A stretch of 64,000 nt of DNA from Clostridia bacterium (GTDB lineage Bacteria > Bacillota > Clostridia > Christensenellales > UMGS416): positions 62,001 to 126,000 of the forward strand of contig JAFGUF010000042.1 of NCBI GenBank assembly GCA_016938675.1, written 5' to 3'. The number at the start of each line of letters is the position of its first letter. Positions within the stretch are counted from its first letter, which is position 1. Position numbers and translations under genes: made by a program. Shown in pieces: positions 25,977 to 32,747 of the stretch. Under the pieces are notes generated by a model. That model had not been told where the DNA came from, did no database searches, and worked only from the letters and a program-made list of their open reading frames with translations.

Positions 25977-28175
25977 ATGAAAAACTACGAAATTAATGAA
26001 AAACTTGATATAAAAGATATTCTTTCTGATATAGAAAATTACCGTCCCAGAAGGCGCGGGTGGACGTGGAGAAAAAAGATTGAAAATCTTGAAATGGGCG
26101 GACATACATATCATGACTGCTCAGAGCCATTGAAAAACAGCATCGGCATACCAAGCGCTGTGCAGTATTTTGATAATCTTGATCCCCAGCCGGATGCCGT
26201 AATAACAACGGAAATAGCATCAGGAAGATTCGAAGATGACATCAGGCGTATGAGGATGAGTGCATGGCACGGAGCGGACCACATCATGGTGATACGCACG
26301 GCAGGCCAGAGCCACTATGACGGGCTTATTGAGGGAACGCCACAGGGCATAGGCGGAATACCCGTAACCAGAAAACAGGTGCGCTGCCATAGAAAGGCGC
26401 TGGACTTTATAGAGGATGAAGTGGGCAGGCCCATCAACTACCATTCGTATGTATCAGGCGTGGCAGGTCCTGAAATAGCCGTAATGTTTGCAGAAGAGGG
26501 CGTAAACGGAGCTCATCAGGACCCTCAGTACAATGTATTATACAGGAACATAAACATGGTGCGCAGCTTCGTGGATGCAGCTGAGAGCAAAAAGGTGATG
26601 GCTTGGGCGGACATGGCGCAGATAGACGGCGCTCACAATGCAAACGCAACAGCTAGAGAAGCATGGAAGGTGATGCCTGAGCTTATGGTGCAGCACGGAA
26701 TCAACTGCATGTTCTCATATAAAGCTGGAATGAAGAAAGAGAATATTTGCCTGTCAACTGTTCCGCCGTCTGCGGCTCCGCTGCCATGCACAAAGTATGA
26801 TTTGCCGTACGCTGTTGCGCTGCGTGATTTTTTCAAAGGCTATAGAATGAGAGCACAGCAAAACACGAAATATATCACATCCTCATCAAGGGAAGCGACT
26901 GTAACCCACGTACTGAATATGATGATTTCGAAGCTGACAAGCGCTGATATACAGTCAACTATAACGCCAGATGAAGGCAGAAATGTGCCTTGGCACATGT
27001 ACAATATTGAAGCCTGCGACACGGCAAAGCAGACAATGGTTGCGCTGGATGGGCTGCTTGAGATGGTTGAGCTAAAAGACAGCGGATACCTAAAGGAAGA
27101 AATAAGAGAGCTAAAGGAAAGAGCAGTGCTCTACTTAGAAGAGCTTCTTGACCAGGGCGGATACTTTGAAGCTGTGGAAAAAGGATTTTTCGTAGATTCC
27201 GGCAAGTACCCGGAAAGACACGGCGACGGCATAGGCAGAAAAATAGACGGCGGTATCGGAGCGGGCACAGTATATAAAAGGGACATTGACTATATGGCTC
27301 CCGTTACTGCGCACTTCGGCTACAATAATGTGGCGCAGTATGATGAAAAGGCGGTGGATGACCCCGCGAGACTGATAGACGGCTGTACACTCGAAAAGCC
27401 TGATAAGATAATATTTATAGATGAATTAGACAGCGAAGACAACGTTGCTAACCGAATGAAAGAAGCGGAAAAATATCGAAATAGCAATTTTGTTAAACCG
27501 GAAGTTGAATGGCTGGCCGACGGTACTGTGGTTGTAGAGATATTCCTACCGACGGATAAGAGGACAGCGGAGTTTGCAGCGCTGGAGATTGCAGGCAAAA
27601 TGAACATAAAAAATCCTGAGGTAATCCACATTGAGGTGCTGCACCCATCGGAGGGCACAAGGCTGCAAGTGAAGGGAAAAGTTGACATAGATGTTGACAT
27701 CACAAAGCTGAAAATGCCTGCAGAGCCAGTGGTGCTTAATGATGATGAGCTATGGGAGGCAATCGAAAAGCGGCCAATGAAGGTAGTAGCGGCTACAATA
27801 GGCAGCGATGAGCATTCTGTTGGTCTACGCGAAATAATAGACATAAAGCACGGCGGAATAGAGAAATGGGGCATTGAGGTGGAATACCTAGGCACATCCT
27901 GCCCGGTTGAGAAGCTGGTAGATGCCGCAATTGAGACAAACGCCGAGGCAATACTTGCATCAACCATAATAAGCCACGATGAAGTGCACTATCAGAACAT
28001 GAAGAAAATCCATGATCTATGCGTGGAAAAGGGCATAAGGGACAAAGTGAACATAGTTTGCGGCGGAACACAGGTAAGCAACGAAATGGCGGTGAAGACC
28101 GGCGTTGATGCAGGATTCGGACGCGGAACTAAGGGCAAGCACGTAGCGACATTCTTGGTTACACACAGGAAATAA
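25977..28175 (+). CDS. oraE: D-ornithine 4,5-aminomutase, E subunit
   Basis: At 732 residues this is the large catalytic subunit. The C-terminal cobalamin-binding domain has the DxHxxG motif as DEHSVG (Asp611 and His613), which gives base-off/His-on binding. The long N-terminal TIM-barrel-like part binds PLP. The enzyme moves the terminal amino group of D-ornithine to C4, forming 2,4-diaminopentanoate by a radical mechanism. The ATG at 25977 follows a TAGGAG SD. A MutL/GlmL-like reactivase gene comes next. Confidence 0.95.
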   Translation: MKNYEINEKLDIKDILSDIENYRPRRRGWTWRKKIENLEMGGHTYHDCSEPLKNSIGIPSAVQYFDNLDPQPDAVITTEIASGRFEDDIRRMRMSAWHGADHIMVIRTAGQSHYDGLIEGTPQGIGGIPVTRKQVRCHRKALDFIEDEVGRPINYHSYVSGVAGPEIAVMFAEEGVNGAHQDPQYNVLYRNINMVRSFVDAAESKKVMAWADMAQIDGAHNANATAREAWKVMPELMVQHGINCMFSYKAGMKKENICLSTVPPSAAPLPCTKYDLPYAVALRDFFKGYRMRAQQNTKYITSSSREATVTHVLNMMISKLTSADIQSTITPDEGRNVPWHMYNIEACDTAKQTMVALDGLLEMVELKDSGYLKEEIRELKERAVLYLEELLDQGGYFEAVEKGFFVDSGKYPERHGDGIGRKIDGGIGAGTVYKRDIDYMAPVTAHFGYNNVAQYDEKAVDDPARLIDGCTLEKPDKIIFIDELDSEDNVANRMKEAEKYRNSNFVKPEVEWLADGTVVVEIFLPTDKRTAEFAALEIAGKMNIKNPEVIHIEVLHPSEGTRLQVKGKVDIDVDITKLKMPAEPVVLNDDELWEAIEKRPMKVVAATIGSDEHSVGLREIIDIKHGGIEKWGIEVEYLGTSCPVEKLVDAAIETNAEAILASTIISHDEVHYQNMKKIHDLCVEKGIRDKVNIVCGGTQVSNEMAVKTGVDAGFGRGTKGKHVATFLVTHRK

Positions 28176-28192
28176 CAAAGCAAAGGCATAAT

Positions 28193-29554
28193 ATGAAAGC
28201 TGATGTACTGGTAGCGGAAATTGGCAGCACAACAACGGTTGTCAATGCATTTAATATTAAAGATAAATCCGAATTTTTGGGCTCCGGGCAGTCGCCCACA
28301 ACTGTAAATGAGGGCGATGTAAATATCGGGCTTAAAAATGCTGTCGATGACCTATGCAAAAAGCTCGGTGCGGATAAAATGCAATACGATGAGCTTCTGG
28401 CGACAAGCAGCGCAGCCGGCGGGCTCAAGATGACGGTTCACGGGCTGGTATACGACATGACAGTGCGTGCCGCAAAGGAGGCTGCTCTTGGTGCAGGCGC
28501 AAACATACATATGATAACTGCTGGCAGGCTGACGCGCACCGACCTTGAAAAGATCAAGCAGATTAGGCCGAATATTATGCTGCTGGCAGGCGGAGTTAAC
28601 TATGGTGAAAGGGAAACAGCCATATATAACGCCGAGCTAATAGCGGGGCTTCATCTGGATGTGCCTGTCATCTATGCTGGCAATGTGCAAAATCAAGATG
28701 AAATAAGGCTGATATTCGAGGGAAGCAAGGCAAAACTTTATATTGTTGAAAATGTATATCCTAAAATTGACCAGCTGAACGTCGAGCCCGCCAGAAAAGT
28801 CATACAGGATGTATTCGAAGAGCATATAACGCATGCGCCGGGGATGGGCAGAGTGCGTGATATGGTGAATGGAAACATCATACCTACCCCTGCAGGAGTG
28901 ATGGAGGCGACGAAGGTTATTGCTGAATTTTTAGGTGATGTCGTCACCGTTGATGTAGGCGGAGCTACAACGGATATACACTCCGTAACAGAGGGCAGTG
29001 AGGAAATATCAAGGCAGCTTATATCCCCTGAGCCCCATGCTAAAAGAACAGTAGAAGGCGACCTAGGCGTTTATGTGAATGCATCAAATCTAATAGAGAT
29101 GGCAGGAAGAGATGAGCTGAAAAAAGCTCTTGCAGTAAATGACGAAGAGCTGGATGAAATTATTGCCGAACATATGCCTATACCTATAACAGATATTGAT
29201 AAGAAATTTACTGAGATTTTAACATCAACAGCATGCAAACTTGCAATGCAAAGGCACGCAGGTGAATTTATTGAGCTTTTCTCAACGGCCGGCAAAAGGA
29301 CCATTGCGCAGGGCAAGGACTTAACTGCCGTTAAATATATAATAGGCACAGGAGGCGCGCTGACGAGGCTTCCAGGAGGTTATGGCATACTTAGAGGTAC
29401 GCTCTTAATGAGCAAAGGGCTCAAGCTGATGCCCAAAGATACAGCAAAGGTATTGCTGGATGCTGACTATATTATGGCTTCATTAGGGGTGCTTAGCAAG
29501 AAATACAAAGAAAAAAGTATTGAGCTTCTTAAGAAAAGCTTAAGGATAGATTAA
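28193..29554 (+). CDS. MutL/GlmL-like protein, probable OraSE reactivating factor
   Basis: This 453-residue protein has an actin/hsp70-like ATPase layout. It shows VAEIGSTTTVVNAF at the N-terminus, and DVGGATTDIHSV (about residue 255) and GTGGALTRLPGG (about residue 385) as later phosphate-binding loops. It belongs to the MutL/GlmL family often found beside B12-dependent mutases. The likely job is to exchange inactive cobalamin on OraE, inferred from position. The ATG at 28193 is 17 nt after oraE. The operon terminator follows at 29584. Confidence 0.88.
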   Translation: MKADVLVAEIGSTTTVVNAFNIKDKSEFLGSGQSPTTVNEGDVNIGLKNAVDDLCKKLGADKMQYDELLATSSAAGGLKMTVHGLVYDMTVRAAKEAALGAGANIHMITAGRLTRTDLEKIKQIRPNIMLLAGGVNYGERETAIYNAELIAGLHLDVPVIYAGNVQNQDEIRLIFEGSKAKLYIVENVYPKIDQLNVEPARKVIQDVFEEHITHAPGMGRVRDMVNGNIIPTPAGVMEATKVIAEFLGDVVTVDVGGATTDIHSVTEGSEEISRQLISPEPHAKRTVEGDLGVYVNASNLIEMAGRDELKKALAVNDEELDEIIAEHMPIPITDIDKKFTEILTSTACKLAMQRHAGEFIELFSTAGKRTIAQGKDLTAVKYIIGTGGALTRLPGGYGILRGTLLMSKGLKLMPKDTAKVLLDADYIMASLGVLSKKYKEKSIELLKKSLRID

Positions 29555-29743: not shown

Positions 29744-29796
29744 TTGACAAATATGAGTAAATAGATTACCCTTAAATACGAGTAAAGCGCTTGCTC
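29744..29796 (+). promoter_or_regulatory. BlaI-type promoter with two operator dyads
   Basis: TTGACA (29744-29749) is followed at 17 nt by a weak TACCCT -10. Two matching 17-bp dyads, each GAGTAA-N5-TTRCYC, lie at 29755-29771 and 29780-29796, with centres 25 bp apart. The first covers the promoter spacer and -10, the second the expected start site. They are probable binding sites for the BlaI-type repressor encoded at 29836. Confidence 0.6.
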
Positions 29797-29835
29797 ATAA
29801 TTACGCTATGGAGAAATAGCAAAAAGGAGCCGACT

Positions 29836-30216
29836 ATGAAAGAATATCCCAGTCTGTCATCAAATGATAAGGTAATTATGGATCTGGTTTGGGAAGATGG
29901 CGAGGCTAGCACGGCGTCTATATTGGAGAAACTGGAAGGAAGCGAAAACTGGACAAGGCATACCGTGAAAACATACCTTCTAAGGCTTGAAGAAAAGAAG
30001 TTGCTTCAAAAGGTGCAGATAAGCGCCCGCAAAATCAAGTTTCTTCCCGCAATTTCAAAGGAAGAATATCTTGCAGGGGATGCCAGCCAGTATTTAAACA
30101 GCCACTTCAAGGGCCTTAAACATATGGTGGCCAGCTTTGTAGACAATGAGATGATATCCGATGAGGAGCTGGACGATCTGGAAAAATACATCAGAGAAAT
30201 CAAAGATAACAGATGA
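29836..30216 (+). CDS. BlaI/MecI family transcriptional repressor
   Basis: This 126-residue winged-helix protein has the family start (LSSNDKVIMDLVWEDGEAS), the recognition region ENWTRHTVKTYLLRLEEKKLL, and a C-terminal dimer helix (SDEELDDLEKYIREI). BlaI/MecI proteins repress their operon until cleaved after signalling by an M56 membrane protease, which is the next gene. The ATG at 29836 has an AAGGAG SD at 29824-29829 and is preferred over an upstream in-frame ATG. No beta-lactamase gene is nearby, so it likely answers a different cell-envelope signal. Confidence 0.9.
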   Translation: MKEYPSLSSNDKVIMDLVWEDGEASTASILEKLEGSENWTRHTVKTYLLRLEEKKLLQKVQISARKIKFLPAISKEEYLAGDASQYLNSHFKGLKHMVASFVDNEMISDEELDDLEKYIREIKDNR

Positions 30217-30226
30217 GGATAGTTAA

Positions 30227-31663
30227 ATGAACTTTATGAAAACCATACTGGAGTTGTCTGTTTATTCATCCATAATGATACTTGCAGTTCTAGCGCTTAA
30301 AGCGGCATTCAATGGCAAGATAAGGCATAGAATAGTTATTTGGATGTGGATGCTTGTTCTGCTGAGGCTGATAATTCCGATTACAATAAATTCTCCGCTG
30401 CATTTCGACAGTTTGCTGCAAAAAAACACTGCTAACGAAACAGATGGAACAGACATATTCACTGGGGAAGCAGCAGAAACACACGCAACGGAAGAAAATT
30501 TTCACTTTGAAGATACTGTACCTTCAGCTGAATCGGACATAAATGGAAACAACGCTGCAAATGAAGCATTGCCAGAGAACAACCCTGCTAAAGGAAGCCT
30601 TTTGCAAAAAACTATTGAATTTGCGGAATCAATCTCTCTATTGATGTATGTTTTGGTTATATGGATAGCAGGAGCAGCTATATCCGGCTTGATTAATCTG
30701 TGGAGCTTTATTTCGTTCAATGGGCTGATGAAGCAGTGTGCCCCAGCAGAAGGAGTGATTGACCAAGCGGTGCAGGACATTAAAGCTAGGCTTAAAATGA
30801 AGCAAAGAGTAAAGGTTATTGTCTGCAGCTATGTTGGCGCGCCAATGACATTCAGACTGCTGGAGCCAACAATTATACTGCCCAAAAGCCTGACAGGCAG
30901 GATATCCGAAGACAAGCTGAATATGATACTGCTGCATGAATTGTGCCACATTAAACGAAAAGACATATTCTTCAATATTCTTTGGATGTTTGCGAAGATT
31001 GTTCACTGGTTCAATCCGCTTGTATGGATTGGATACAACGGCTATGTTGAAGATATTGAGCTATCCTGCGATGAAATGGTTAACAGGTATCTTGATGCAG
31101 AGCAGAGCTTCATCTATTCCCAGAGCTTAATAGACGTAATAAGGTTTTCACGAAACACAGGTTGGCTTCCGGCTGCATTATCCTTTTGCGAGGATAAGAG
31201 CAAACTGAGAAAGCGAGTTGAAAATATGCTGAAACCACAGAAAAAACTTAAATCTGCAGGAGGCATTTCTTTGTTTCTTGCACTCATAATGATATTTACA
31301 TGCTTTACTACTGCCTGCCAGCCCACGCCGCAGGAAGATATTGTGCAGAATAAAAACGACGGTGAGCTTGAAGCTGCTATTATGGAGACAGCTGCGCCTG
31401 ATGAAACACAGGATACAGACAATAAATCCGTATGGATAAAAGATGAGCTGAGTAATGATGCAGGAACAATAAAAATAGACATTGATGCACGGGTTGAGCC
31501 GATCAGTGAGGAGAAAATAACGATAGCAAGGCTGGAACCATACAGCTTTACAGAGCCTGAAATGGCTGCAATGACTGAGGTGTTTTTCGGCGGAGAGGTA
31601 ACATATTATGATTATCTAACATCCACAAAGGCTGACTATGAGAATAATATAATATACCTGTAG
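30227..31663 (+). CDS. M56 (BlaR1/MecR1-like) membrane metalloprotease, ended by an in-frame TAG
   Basis: The 478-residue product has hydrophobic helices at about 5-28 and 37-53, then a long Asn/Glu-rich loop (about 65-130), a helix (about 137-160), and the zinc site HELCH (His237-His241). A last membrane helix follows at about 342-362. This is the sensor-protease layout of BlaR1, paired with the BlaI repressor upstream. The ATG at 30227 has a GAGG SD. The frame stops at TAG 31661-31663, yet it continues open in the same frame to 32680. The extension looks like the rest of the external sensor domain, so the protein may be truncated. Confidence 0.85.
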   Translation: MNFMKTILELSVYSSIMILAVLALKAAFNGKIRHRIVIWMWMLVLLRLIIPITINSPLHFDSLLQKNTANETDGTDIFTGEAAETHATEENFHFEDTVPSAESDINGNNAANEALPENNPAKGSLLQKTIEFAESISLLMYVLVIWIAGAAISGLINLWSFISFNGLMKQCAPAEGVIDQAVQDIKARLKMKQRVKVIVCSYVGAPMTFRLLEPTIILPKSLTGRISEDKLNMILLHELCHIKRKDIFFNILWMFAKIVHWFNPLVWIGYNGYVEDIELSCDEMVNRYLDAEQSFIYSQSLIDVIRFSRNTGWLPAALSFCEDKSKLRKRVENMLKPQKKLKSAGGISLFLALIMIFTCFTTACQPTPQEDIVQNKNDGELEAAIMETAAPDETQDTDNKSVWIKDELSNDAGTIKIDIDARVEPISEEKITIARLEPYSFTEPEMAAMTEVFFGGEVTYYDYLTSTKADYENNIIYL

Positions 31664-31675
31664 CAGCGACTGACG

Positions 31676-32680
31676 TTGGATGATAATGAGCTGTTAGTAC
31701 TTTATGAAGATAAGGATATTACAGATGTTGATGAGATAAAAGCTCATATTAACAAAGTAATTGAGGAATTGAAGACCCGGGCCGCTTCTGCCCCGGAAAA
31801 AAGTGATGTGATCGAAAAATTTGAGAGCAGAACGGAAAAGTGGGGCGGATTTTACGCAAAAGTTGACTATGGGCAAGACCATATGGGATATGTTTCCTAT
31901 GATGAGCCTTTTGCAGGCAGGGAAACATTTTTCTGCAGCGCCTATACCGACATGGGAAATGATTTAGCCGTGTCCTTTGATGTAGATACAGATGCGGAAG
32001 ATTTTGATGCGGCAAAAAGCAACGCTCAGGACTTAATAACAAGGATGGGAATCGAGGGCGTAAGGCTGGGCGATATACACACGCTTTCGAATGAAGGAAA
32101 CCTATATTATGTATTCTGCTTTGAGCGCATAGTGGGCGAAAGAACAATAGACTATTCCTTCGATGACGGCGGATATACAGACGACTATGAGGCGACGATC
32201 ACTGTACCTTACGAAAAGATAGAGGTTTGGATGAACGGGACAGAGCTAGCAAAATTTTATTGGAGAAACCCACACAGAGTAATAGACATTGTTAATGATA
32301 ACGCCGCAGTTCAAATAGATTATTTTAAGGCTTTGGAACTAGGCATAAACCAGATATACGCAAAGTACGCTTACCTGCAGAATCCGGAAAGGACGGAAGA
32401 AGTATTAGTTACAATTACAAGCATAGAATTTGACATGGTAAGGTTGAAAGAAAAGGACAGCGAATACTATATTTCAGTACCTGCATGGAAAATATACGGT
32501 GACGCATACGAAAAGCGGACACAAGAAATGATTGATTATTTGACTGAACTTTCTGAGGAAGATACCAATAGCAATATTGACATAAGCGAATATATATCAC
32601 TGACACAATATACCGGGCCTAATATAGTAACAGTTAACGCTTTGGACGGAAGTATAATAGACATGGGCAAAGGTTATTGA
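31676..32680 (+). CDS. C-terminal sensor-domain part of the M56 protein, separated by an in-frame TAG
   Basis: This 334-codon stretch is in exactly the same frame as the M56 gene, with only TAG and four sense codons (CAG CGA CTG ACG) before its TTG. It has no SD of its own. The end of the upstream part (FTEPEMAAMTEVFFGGE...) and the start of this part (KVIEELKTRAASAPE) read as one extracellular domain. It resembles, from memory, domains called DUF6034 in clostridial M56 proteins. The joined frame would give 817 residues. One CAG-to-TAG change would explain the break. It may be a pseudogene fragment, a reinitiated product, or a readthrough extension. Confidence 0.6.
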   Translation: MDDNELLVLYEDKDITDVDEIKAHINKVIEELKTRAASAPEKSDVIEKFESRTEKWGGFYAKVDYGQDHMGYVSYDEPFAGRETFFCSAYTDMGNDLAVSFDVDTDAEDFDAAKSNAQDLITRMGIEGVRLGDIHTLSNEGNLYYVFCFERIVGERTIDYSFDDGGYTDDYEATITVPYEKIEVWMNGTELAKFYWRNPHRVIDIVNDNAAVQIDYFKALELGINQIYAKYAYLQNPERTEEVLVTITSIEFDMVRLKEKDSEYYISVPAWKIYGDAYEKRTQEMIDYLTELSEEDTNSNIDISEYISLTQYTGPNIVTVNALDGSIIDMGKGY

Positions 32681-32709
32681 TATTAAATCCACATATCTCC
32701 CATAAAAAG

Positions 32710-32737
32710 AAAGAGCCTTCCAATGGGAAGGCTCTTT
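32710..32737 (-). terminator. Intrinsic terminator after serC
   Basis: A perfect 12-bp stem, AAAGAGCCTTCC (32710-32721) and its complement (32726-32737), encloses a 4-nt loop. The minus strand continues with a T-rich tail (TCTTTTTATG), so it mainly ends the serA-serC transcript. It may also slow transcription coming from the M56 gene. Confidence 0.82.
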
Positions 32738-32747
32738 CGGCGAGTAT

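Follow-up and report, generated by a model that had tools for sequence, protein, structure and literature searches.

Layout of the locus

The window, which is the whole 64,000-nucleotide stretch of DNA that was analysed, contains a two-gene BlaI/BlaR1-type operon. The repressor gene (29836-30216) comes first, next an M56 protease gene (30227-31663), and then 338 open codons in the frame of the protease gene. The features of the locus and the evidence for each are as follows.

29744..29772, + strand: promoter-like TTGACA-17-TACCCT of the operon, recognized by eye and absent from the output of a generic scan
29749..29798, + strand: two 25-bp direct repeats (72% alike) with an imperfect palindrome at 29780-29796, from repeat analysis
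29836..30216, + strand: intact BlaI/MecI-type repressor gene (Penicillinase_R; PF03965, E 3e-24, match 29836-30213)
30227..31663, + strand: M56 (BlaR1-like) protease ORF of 478 aa ending in TAG (PF05569 on residues 6-333, E 8.1e-50)
30935..30949, + strand: HELCH motif of the protease, from the sequence
31256..31318, + strand: last membrane helix, ending in the lipobox FTTAC (31304-31318), from helix prediction and alignment
31283..31657, + strand: N-terminal part of the DUF6034 sensor domain (PF19499 profile positions 7-129, 41.5 bits, cut-off 27)
31661..31663, + strand: in-frame TAG inside DUF6034, within a predicted helix, from the sequence, the genome profile match, the alignment and the model
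31664..32680, + strand: rest of the frame, the C-terminal part of DUF6034, ending in TGA (Pfam match 32081-32677; PF19499 profile positions 302-481, 76.8 bits; coding-like codon usage)
32709..32738, no strand assigned: hairpin between convergent genes, terminator-like on the - strand, from a hairpin scan

The PF05569 match on the M56 ORF scored 170.1 bits against a cut-off of 31, and the domain carries the HExxH of its family as HELCH, which we take to be the zinc-binding motif of the protease. The adjoining gene with its PF03965 match is the BlaI/MecI-type neighbor typical of a BlaR1/MecR1-type protease. The repressor also matched the NCBIfam BlaI, MecI and CopY models, in every case below the cut-off.

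A similar promoter layout was seen by eye before blaI in six other loci (L100, L101, L131, L135, L136 and L137). By position and symmetry, the repeats at 29749-29798 are a probable BlaI-type operator. The palindromes before blaI in the window and these six loci, likewise compared by eye, vary from locus to locus and are of the GAGTAA-, GAGGTAAA-, CGGTGAAA- and GACGTAA-type, as if the repressors have different operators. The operator-like repeats and the shared promoter layout with differing palindromes would fit a set of separate self-regulated circuits. The region has two terminator-like sites where shuffles give 2.4 on average, and the hairpin at 32709-32738 is not significant alone. The neighboring genes at 25977-29554 match a MutL-family protein (PF13941) and domains of D-ornithine/lysine aminomutase together with a B12-binding domain.

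The same arrangement is known from the BlaI-BlaR1 and MecI-MecR1 systems of Staphylococcus and Bacillus (MEROPS M56), in which a repressor gene precedes a membrane M56 protease with HExxH, a C-terminal domain follows the last helix, and operator-like repeats lie before the repressor gene. The window locus differs from BlaR1 and MecR1 in that its sensor is DUF6034 instead of a penicillin-binding domain, and in that its copy is interrupted. No transpeptidase domain, the mark of a penicillin-binding sensor, was found in the C-terminal half at E 0.1, and the NCBIfam BlaR1 model gave the protease 152.8 bits against a cut-off of 400, below equivalog level. If the system works like BlaR1 as described in PMC9834060 and PMC7593790, the M56 protease would be switched on when its sensor receives an extracytoplasmic signal, and by the same analogy it would then cut the repressor and open the operon. 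The repressor would be cytoplasmic, and its partner would be a zinc protease of the membrane, joined to an extracytoplasmic DUF6034 sensor through what looks like DUF6034's own lipoprotein signal peptide.

The in-frame TAG and the domain that spans it

The initial annotation ended the M56 ORF at the TAG of 31661-31663 and the same frame at the TGA of 32678-32680, and these coordinates were confirmed. It further read the two halves as one extracytoplasmic domain. This is borne out by PF19499, which matches before and after the TAG with successive parts of the profile (7-129 and 302-481), and by a single genome-level DUF6034 match (profile 7-481, 118.6 bits) that crosses the stop with exactly one TAG inside. 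The window copy is the only stop-containing match among the 11 DUF6034 matches listed for the source genome. A model of the joined domain (31316-32677), built from five sequences, has low confidence overall (mean pLDDT 54.1). The stop lies at position 116 of the model in a helix of residues 105-118, and the mean pLDDT for residues 111-120 is 87. A solved relative of the domain was not found by sequence at E 1, and the open-access literature searched gave no paper on DUF6034. Two YycI chains were the best PDB matches (E 3.2e-3 and 1.5e-2), with TM-scores of at most 0.23; YycI was rejected as a fold relative on such weak values and is at most a lead.

The downstream half has the properties of a coding sequence. 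From base composition, the chance probability of a 338-codon open run is 2.6e-10. The codon score of this half is 0.287 bits per codon, compared with -0.98 and -1.22 for the other two frames of the same strand, and it lies inside the range of 0.14-0.47 for the other window genes of at least 200 aa. GC3 is 0.42 before the stop and 0.41 after it, and the codon scores are alike on both sides. At least 60 open codons followed the stop in 34 of 338 sampled ORFs, usually as the next gene, and 11 of these 34 post-stop frames, the window's included, have no start with a Shine-Dalgarno site by a simple rule. An open frame after a stop is thus not rare by itself, and the present case is real because homology to DUF6034 is found on both sides. 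The case is a warning that open frames after stops need a homology test.

The same simple rule confirmed the annotated absence of a Shine-Dalgarno start in the half after the stop, and the TTG at 31676 does lie 12 nt past it. Reinitiation at this TTG, by which the second half would be made as a separate protein, has the nearby start codon in its favor, but there is no Shine-Dalgarno site, the product, half of an exported domain, would lack a signal peptide and stay in the cytoplasm, and all five intact relatives compared encode one protein. Little or nothing supports this option of the initial annotation, and we consider it hardly credible.

UAG is an ordinary stop in this genome. TAG ends 78 of the 338 sampled ORFs, beside 203 ending in TAA and 57 in TGA (404 kb in all, the window together with 340 kb outside it, and the interrupted M56 ORF counted among the 78), and it ends 16 of the 55 window ORFs. 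Release factor 1 scored over its cut-off. A genome-wide reassignment of UAG, which had already been judged unlikely from the sequence, was ruled out by these counts and by the presence of release factor 1. Pyrrolysine was ruled out as well, with no PylS match over the cut-off in the source genome; the same model gave one match over the cut-off in 14 control genomes. ARAGORN called no tRNA with a stop anticodon (CTA, TTA or TCA) in the loci covering 48 tRNA matches, so that the pair of PylS and CUA-anticodon tRNA that marks UAG recoding was not found in a tRNA set that is incomplete. This incompleteness follows from the lack of any called tRNA-Ile in the source genome, and a suppressor could lie in the missing part.

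Homologues at the stop column and the likely origin of the break

Thirteen homologues were aligned with MAFFT: five intact M56-DUF6034 fusions, the downstream part of a second copy on contig C4 of the source genome, and seven stand-alone DUF6034 proteins of contig C2. All are distant, with about 15-33% identity to the window over the two parts, and the alignment is approximate and loose at the stop column. The collection compared holds no congener, and its search may omit the source genome's own or very near records. Within these bounds, the column of the stop holds a sense residue in all 13 (K in 4, E in 4, and G, D, S, L and R in 1 each). The CAG ancestor that was proposed for the TAG gains no support here, as Gln occurs at this loosely aligned column in none of the 13. 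The intact fusions are one on contig C26 of the same genome (818 aa) and four from MAGs (L131, L135, L136 and L137; stop-to-stop frames of 851-895 aa). Reading of the translations placed a BlaI-like ORF before each of the five. None of them is split into two proteins at the same place, the arrangement that the initial annotation had named as speaking against its reading. A pattern search of the contig collection with the full joined protein confirmed none of 29 matches as a relative. An alignment-based search confirmed 246 of 248 stretches, and the best 80 of the 246 were examined.

The most probable reading is that the protease-sensor gene of a two-gene BlaI/BlaR1-type operon carries a recent nonsense mutation inside the sensor, with a 478-residue product and a remainder that is not usefully translated. 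The recent pseudogene, one of the options first listed for this locus, is the one that is best supported. Codon usage is normal and the 338 codons hold no further stop, which speaks for a recent origin. A stop would arise from 150 of the 3042 single changes that the downstream half can undergo, and the absence of any gives a rough bound of less than about 0.06 per site for the neutral divergence since the break. An undamaged half means either that the break is recent or that the half is still selected. The TAG is presumably a true recent mutation of the source strain. Translation would end after residue 478, and the truncated product would keep the complete M56 domain, the last membrane helix and the lipobox, with only about the first 115 sensor residues. 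Such a protease is presumably inactive or deregulated.

A precedent for this mutation is found in the same genome. Three BlaI-M56-DUF6034 loci were found there, and only the one on C26 is uninterrupted. At the C4 locus (L100; G000:C4:1-6000), the BlaI-like ORF is intact and the M56-DUF6034 gene is broken by a frame change before HExxH, its first part lying in a different frame from HExxH onward. The stop could also be an assembly or sequencing error, or a minority polymorphism of the sampled population, at an intact gene. The assembly is in 45 contigs, the downstream frame is otherwise undamaged, and the C4 sister locus also has one isolated lesion. However, the window M56 gene has no other sign of error, and substitution errors are rare in a consensus sequence. 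We regard an error or polymorphism as unlikely, and less likely than the recent nonsense mutation.

The undamaged downstream half is also expected of a functional read-through product, and this counts against the mutation. In that alternative, productive UAG readthrough would yield small amounts of full-length sensor protease of 817 residues, and the stop would tune or switch the system. The intact, coding-like half would fit it, as would the RNA structure and a second DUF6034 gene with one TAG, in genome G102. As a precedent, Belinky et al. (2021, PMC7918605) report bacterial genes that have in-frame stops and dN/dS below 1, and read them as a sign of frequent readthrough. The window resembles those cases in having a single TAG in an otherwise intact frame, and differs in that its stop is common to none of the homologues compared. 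A stop conserved among relatives, as programmed UAG recoding would have it, was seen in none of the 13 distant homologues, and the G102 stop lies elsewhere, at codon 28. PylS over its cut-off and a called stop anticodon are lacking here and in G102 alike. Three stretches at the stop gave RNA-folding z values of -2.10, -1.97 and -1.15, with 8, 6 and 26 of 200 shuffles at least as stable; the first two stretches are of 100 nt each, around or after the stop. This is a weak structure and is not convincing. Readthrough as a switch, which the initial annotation had raised, is thus left with little or no support from homologues, suppressor tRNA or RNA structure, and we consider it improbable.

The second interrupted gene lies in a genome of a different family (L210; G102:C5:105800-108400). 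It is a stand-alone DUF6034 gene with one TAG directly after its lipoprotein-type signal, a place different from that of the window TAG, and is otherwise open. It came from 121 DUF6034 match rows, with at most three candidates scored per genome and the window's own row outside the set. Six copies in these rows appeared broken (1 TAG, 4 TAA, 1 TGA). In three of the four TAA rows the stop proved to be the normal end of the gene, and the remaining TAA row and the TGA row are both below the cut-off. G102 is therefore the only clear full-length internal stop among the 121 rows, with no comparable TAA or TGA case seen there. Two TAG cases in DUF6034 are weak evidence against the mutation. The M56 profile search gave two over-cut-off rows with a stop inside, G405 (TAG) and G464 (TGA).

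The truncation could also be selected, if the short protein functions as an M56 protease that has no sensor. Some M56 proteins among the best 80 of the 246 loci, such as L143, L153, L166 and L177, do stop only a few residues past the last helix, but about 115 residues of half a domain are still attached to the window protein. The rest of the frame is also undecayed, so the truncated state is not old if that rest is unused. Selected truncation appears very improbable.

The lipobox at the junction of protease and sensor

The last membrane helix of the window protease ends in FTTAC, and FTTAC or FTSAC is found at this junction in the other 6 rows of alignment A1 and in 8 of the 9 best loci from the alignment-based search. 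The segment has the form of a lipoprotein signal, as it is hydrophobic, ends in the lipobox Cys and has no charge just before it. Leu is commoner than Thr at lipobox position -3. Past the Cys, the sequence is similar to the beginning of the mature protein in some stand-alone DUF6034 copies. Seven such genes form an array on contig C2 (L099; G000:C2:12800-32000), all with lipoprotein-type starts, and transporter-like ORFs, named from reading the translations, lie between and after them. These proteins share with the window the domain and the signal-peptide and lipobox start, some with nearly the same first residues (CQPTP...), and differ in being encoded by separate genes without a protease.

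The frequency of the motif was measured in the best 80 of the 246 M56 loci, retrieved with a query that included the motif. At least 100 residues follow the last helix in 59 of them. A strict lipobox was present at the end of the last helix in 23 of the 59 and absent in 36, and the most hydrophobic earlier helix ended in one in only 1 of 59. Shuffled controls averaged 1.1 (maximum 6 in 500), and those with charges kept in place averaged 4.1 (maximum 11). The FTTAC/FTSAC form accounts for 9 of the 23 and three more are near-identical to each other, so the independent cases are fewer than 23. Carriers include the window (31304-31318), L130-L137, L140 and others. A sample across the phylum was drawn by the M56 profile alone. 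Thirty loci were fetched and 29 were given after the source genome's own was dropped; 11 lacked the motif used and 2 were short, which left 16 tested. The lipobox was present in 3 of the 16, two of them alike, and absent in 13. None of 16 control helices had it, and shuffling gave 0.18 on average (maximum 3 in 1000). Type I signal peptidase sites were set aside as evidence: of the 36 M56 proteins that lack a lipobox, 28 have a loose AXA, but the count is uncontrolled.

A comparable junction is known from Staphylococcus aureus BlaR1, where, according to PMC9834060, the type I signal peptidase SpsB cuts the linker after the last helix at Gly331. Where that linker holds an SpsB site, the window linker holds a lipobox, a putative type II counterpart. 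The S. aureus sensor is shed, whereas the sensor of the window family would be anchored by lipid if the lipobox is read in this way. No paper with both BlaR1 and lipobox was found in the open-access literature searched, and the titles and abstract openings seen there held nothing on an internal lipobox in M56 proteins.

From these sequence patterns, we tentatively propose, with slightly more doubt than belief, that in intact members the last helix serves as a lipoprotein signal peptide. The conserved Cys of the sensor would receive the lipid, signal peptidase II would release the sensor, and the sensor would stay anchored beside the protease as a separate lipoprotein. If this is true, the window TAG leaves the protease otherwise complete and costs it no more than the larger part of the lipoprotein moiety. 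The stop itself has an ordinary look: it breaks one gene of a regulatory family present in several copies. With a lipobox conserved at the junction, some sensors of this family may have processing by type II signal peptidase built in. Through the family, repressor proteolysis of the BlaI/BlaR1 type reaches a sensor domain of unknown function, and this matters more than the stop.
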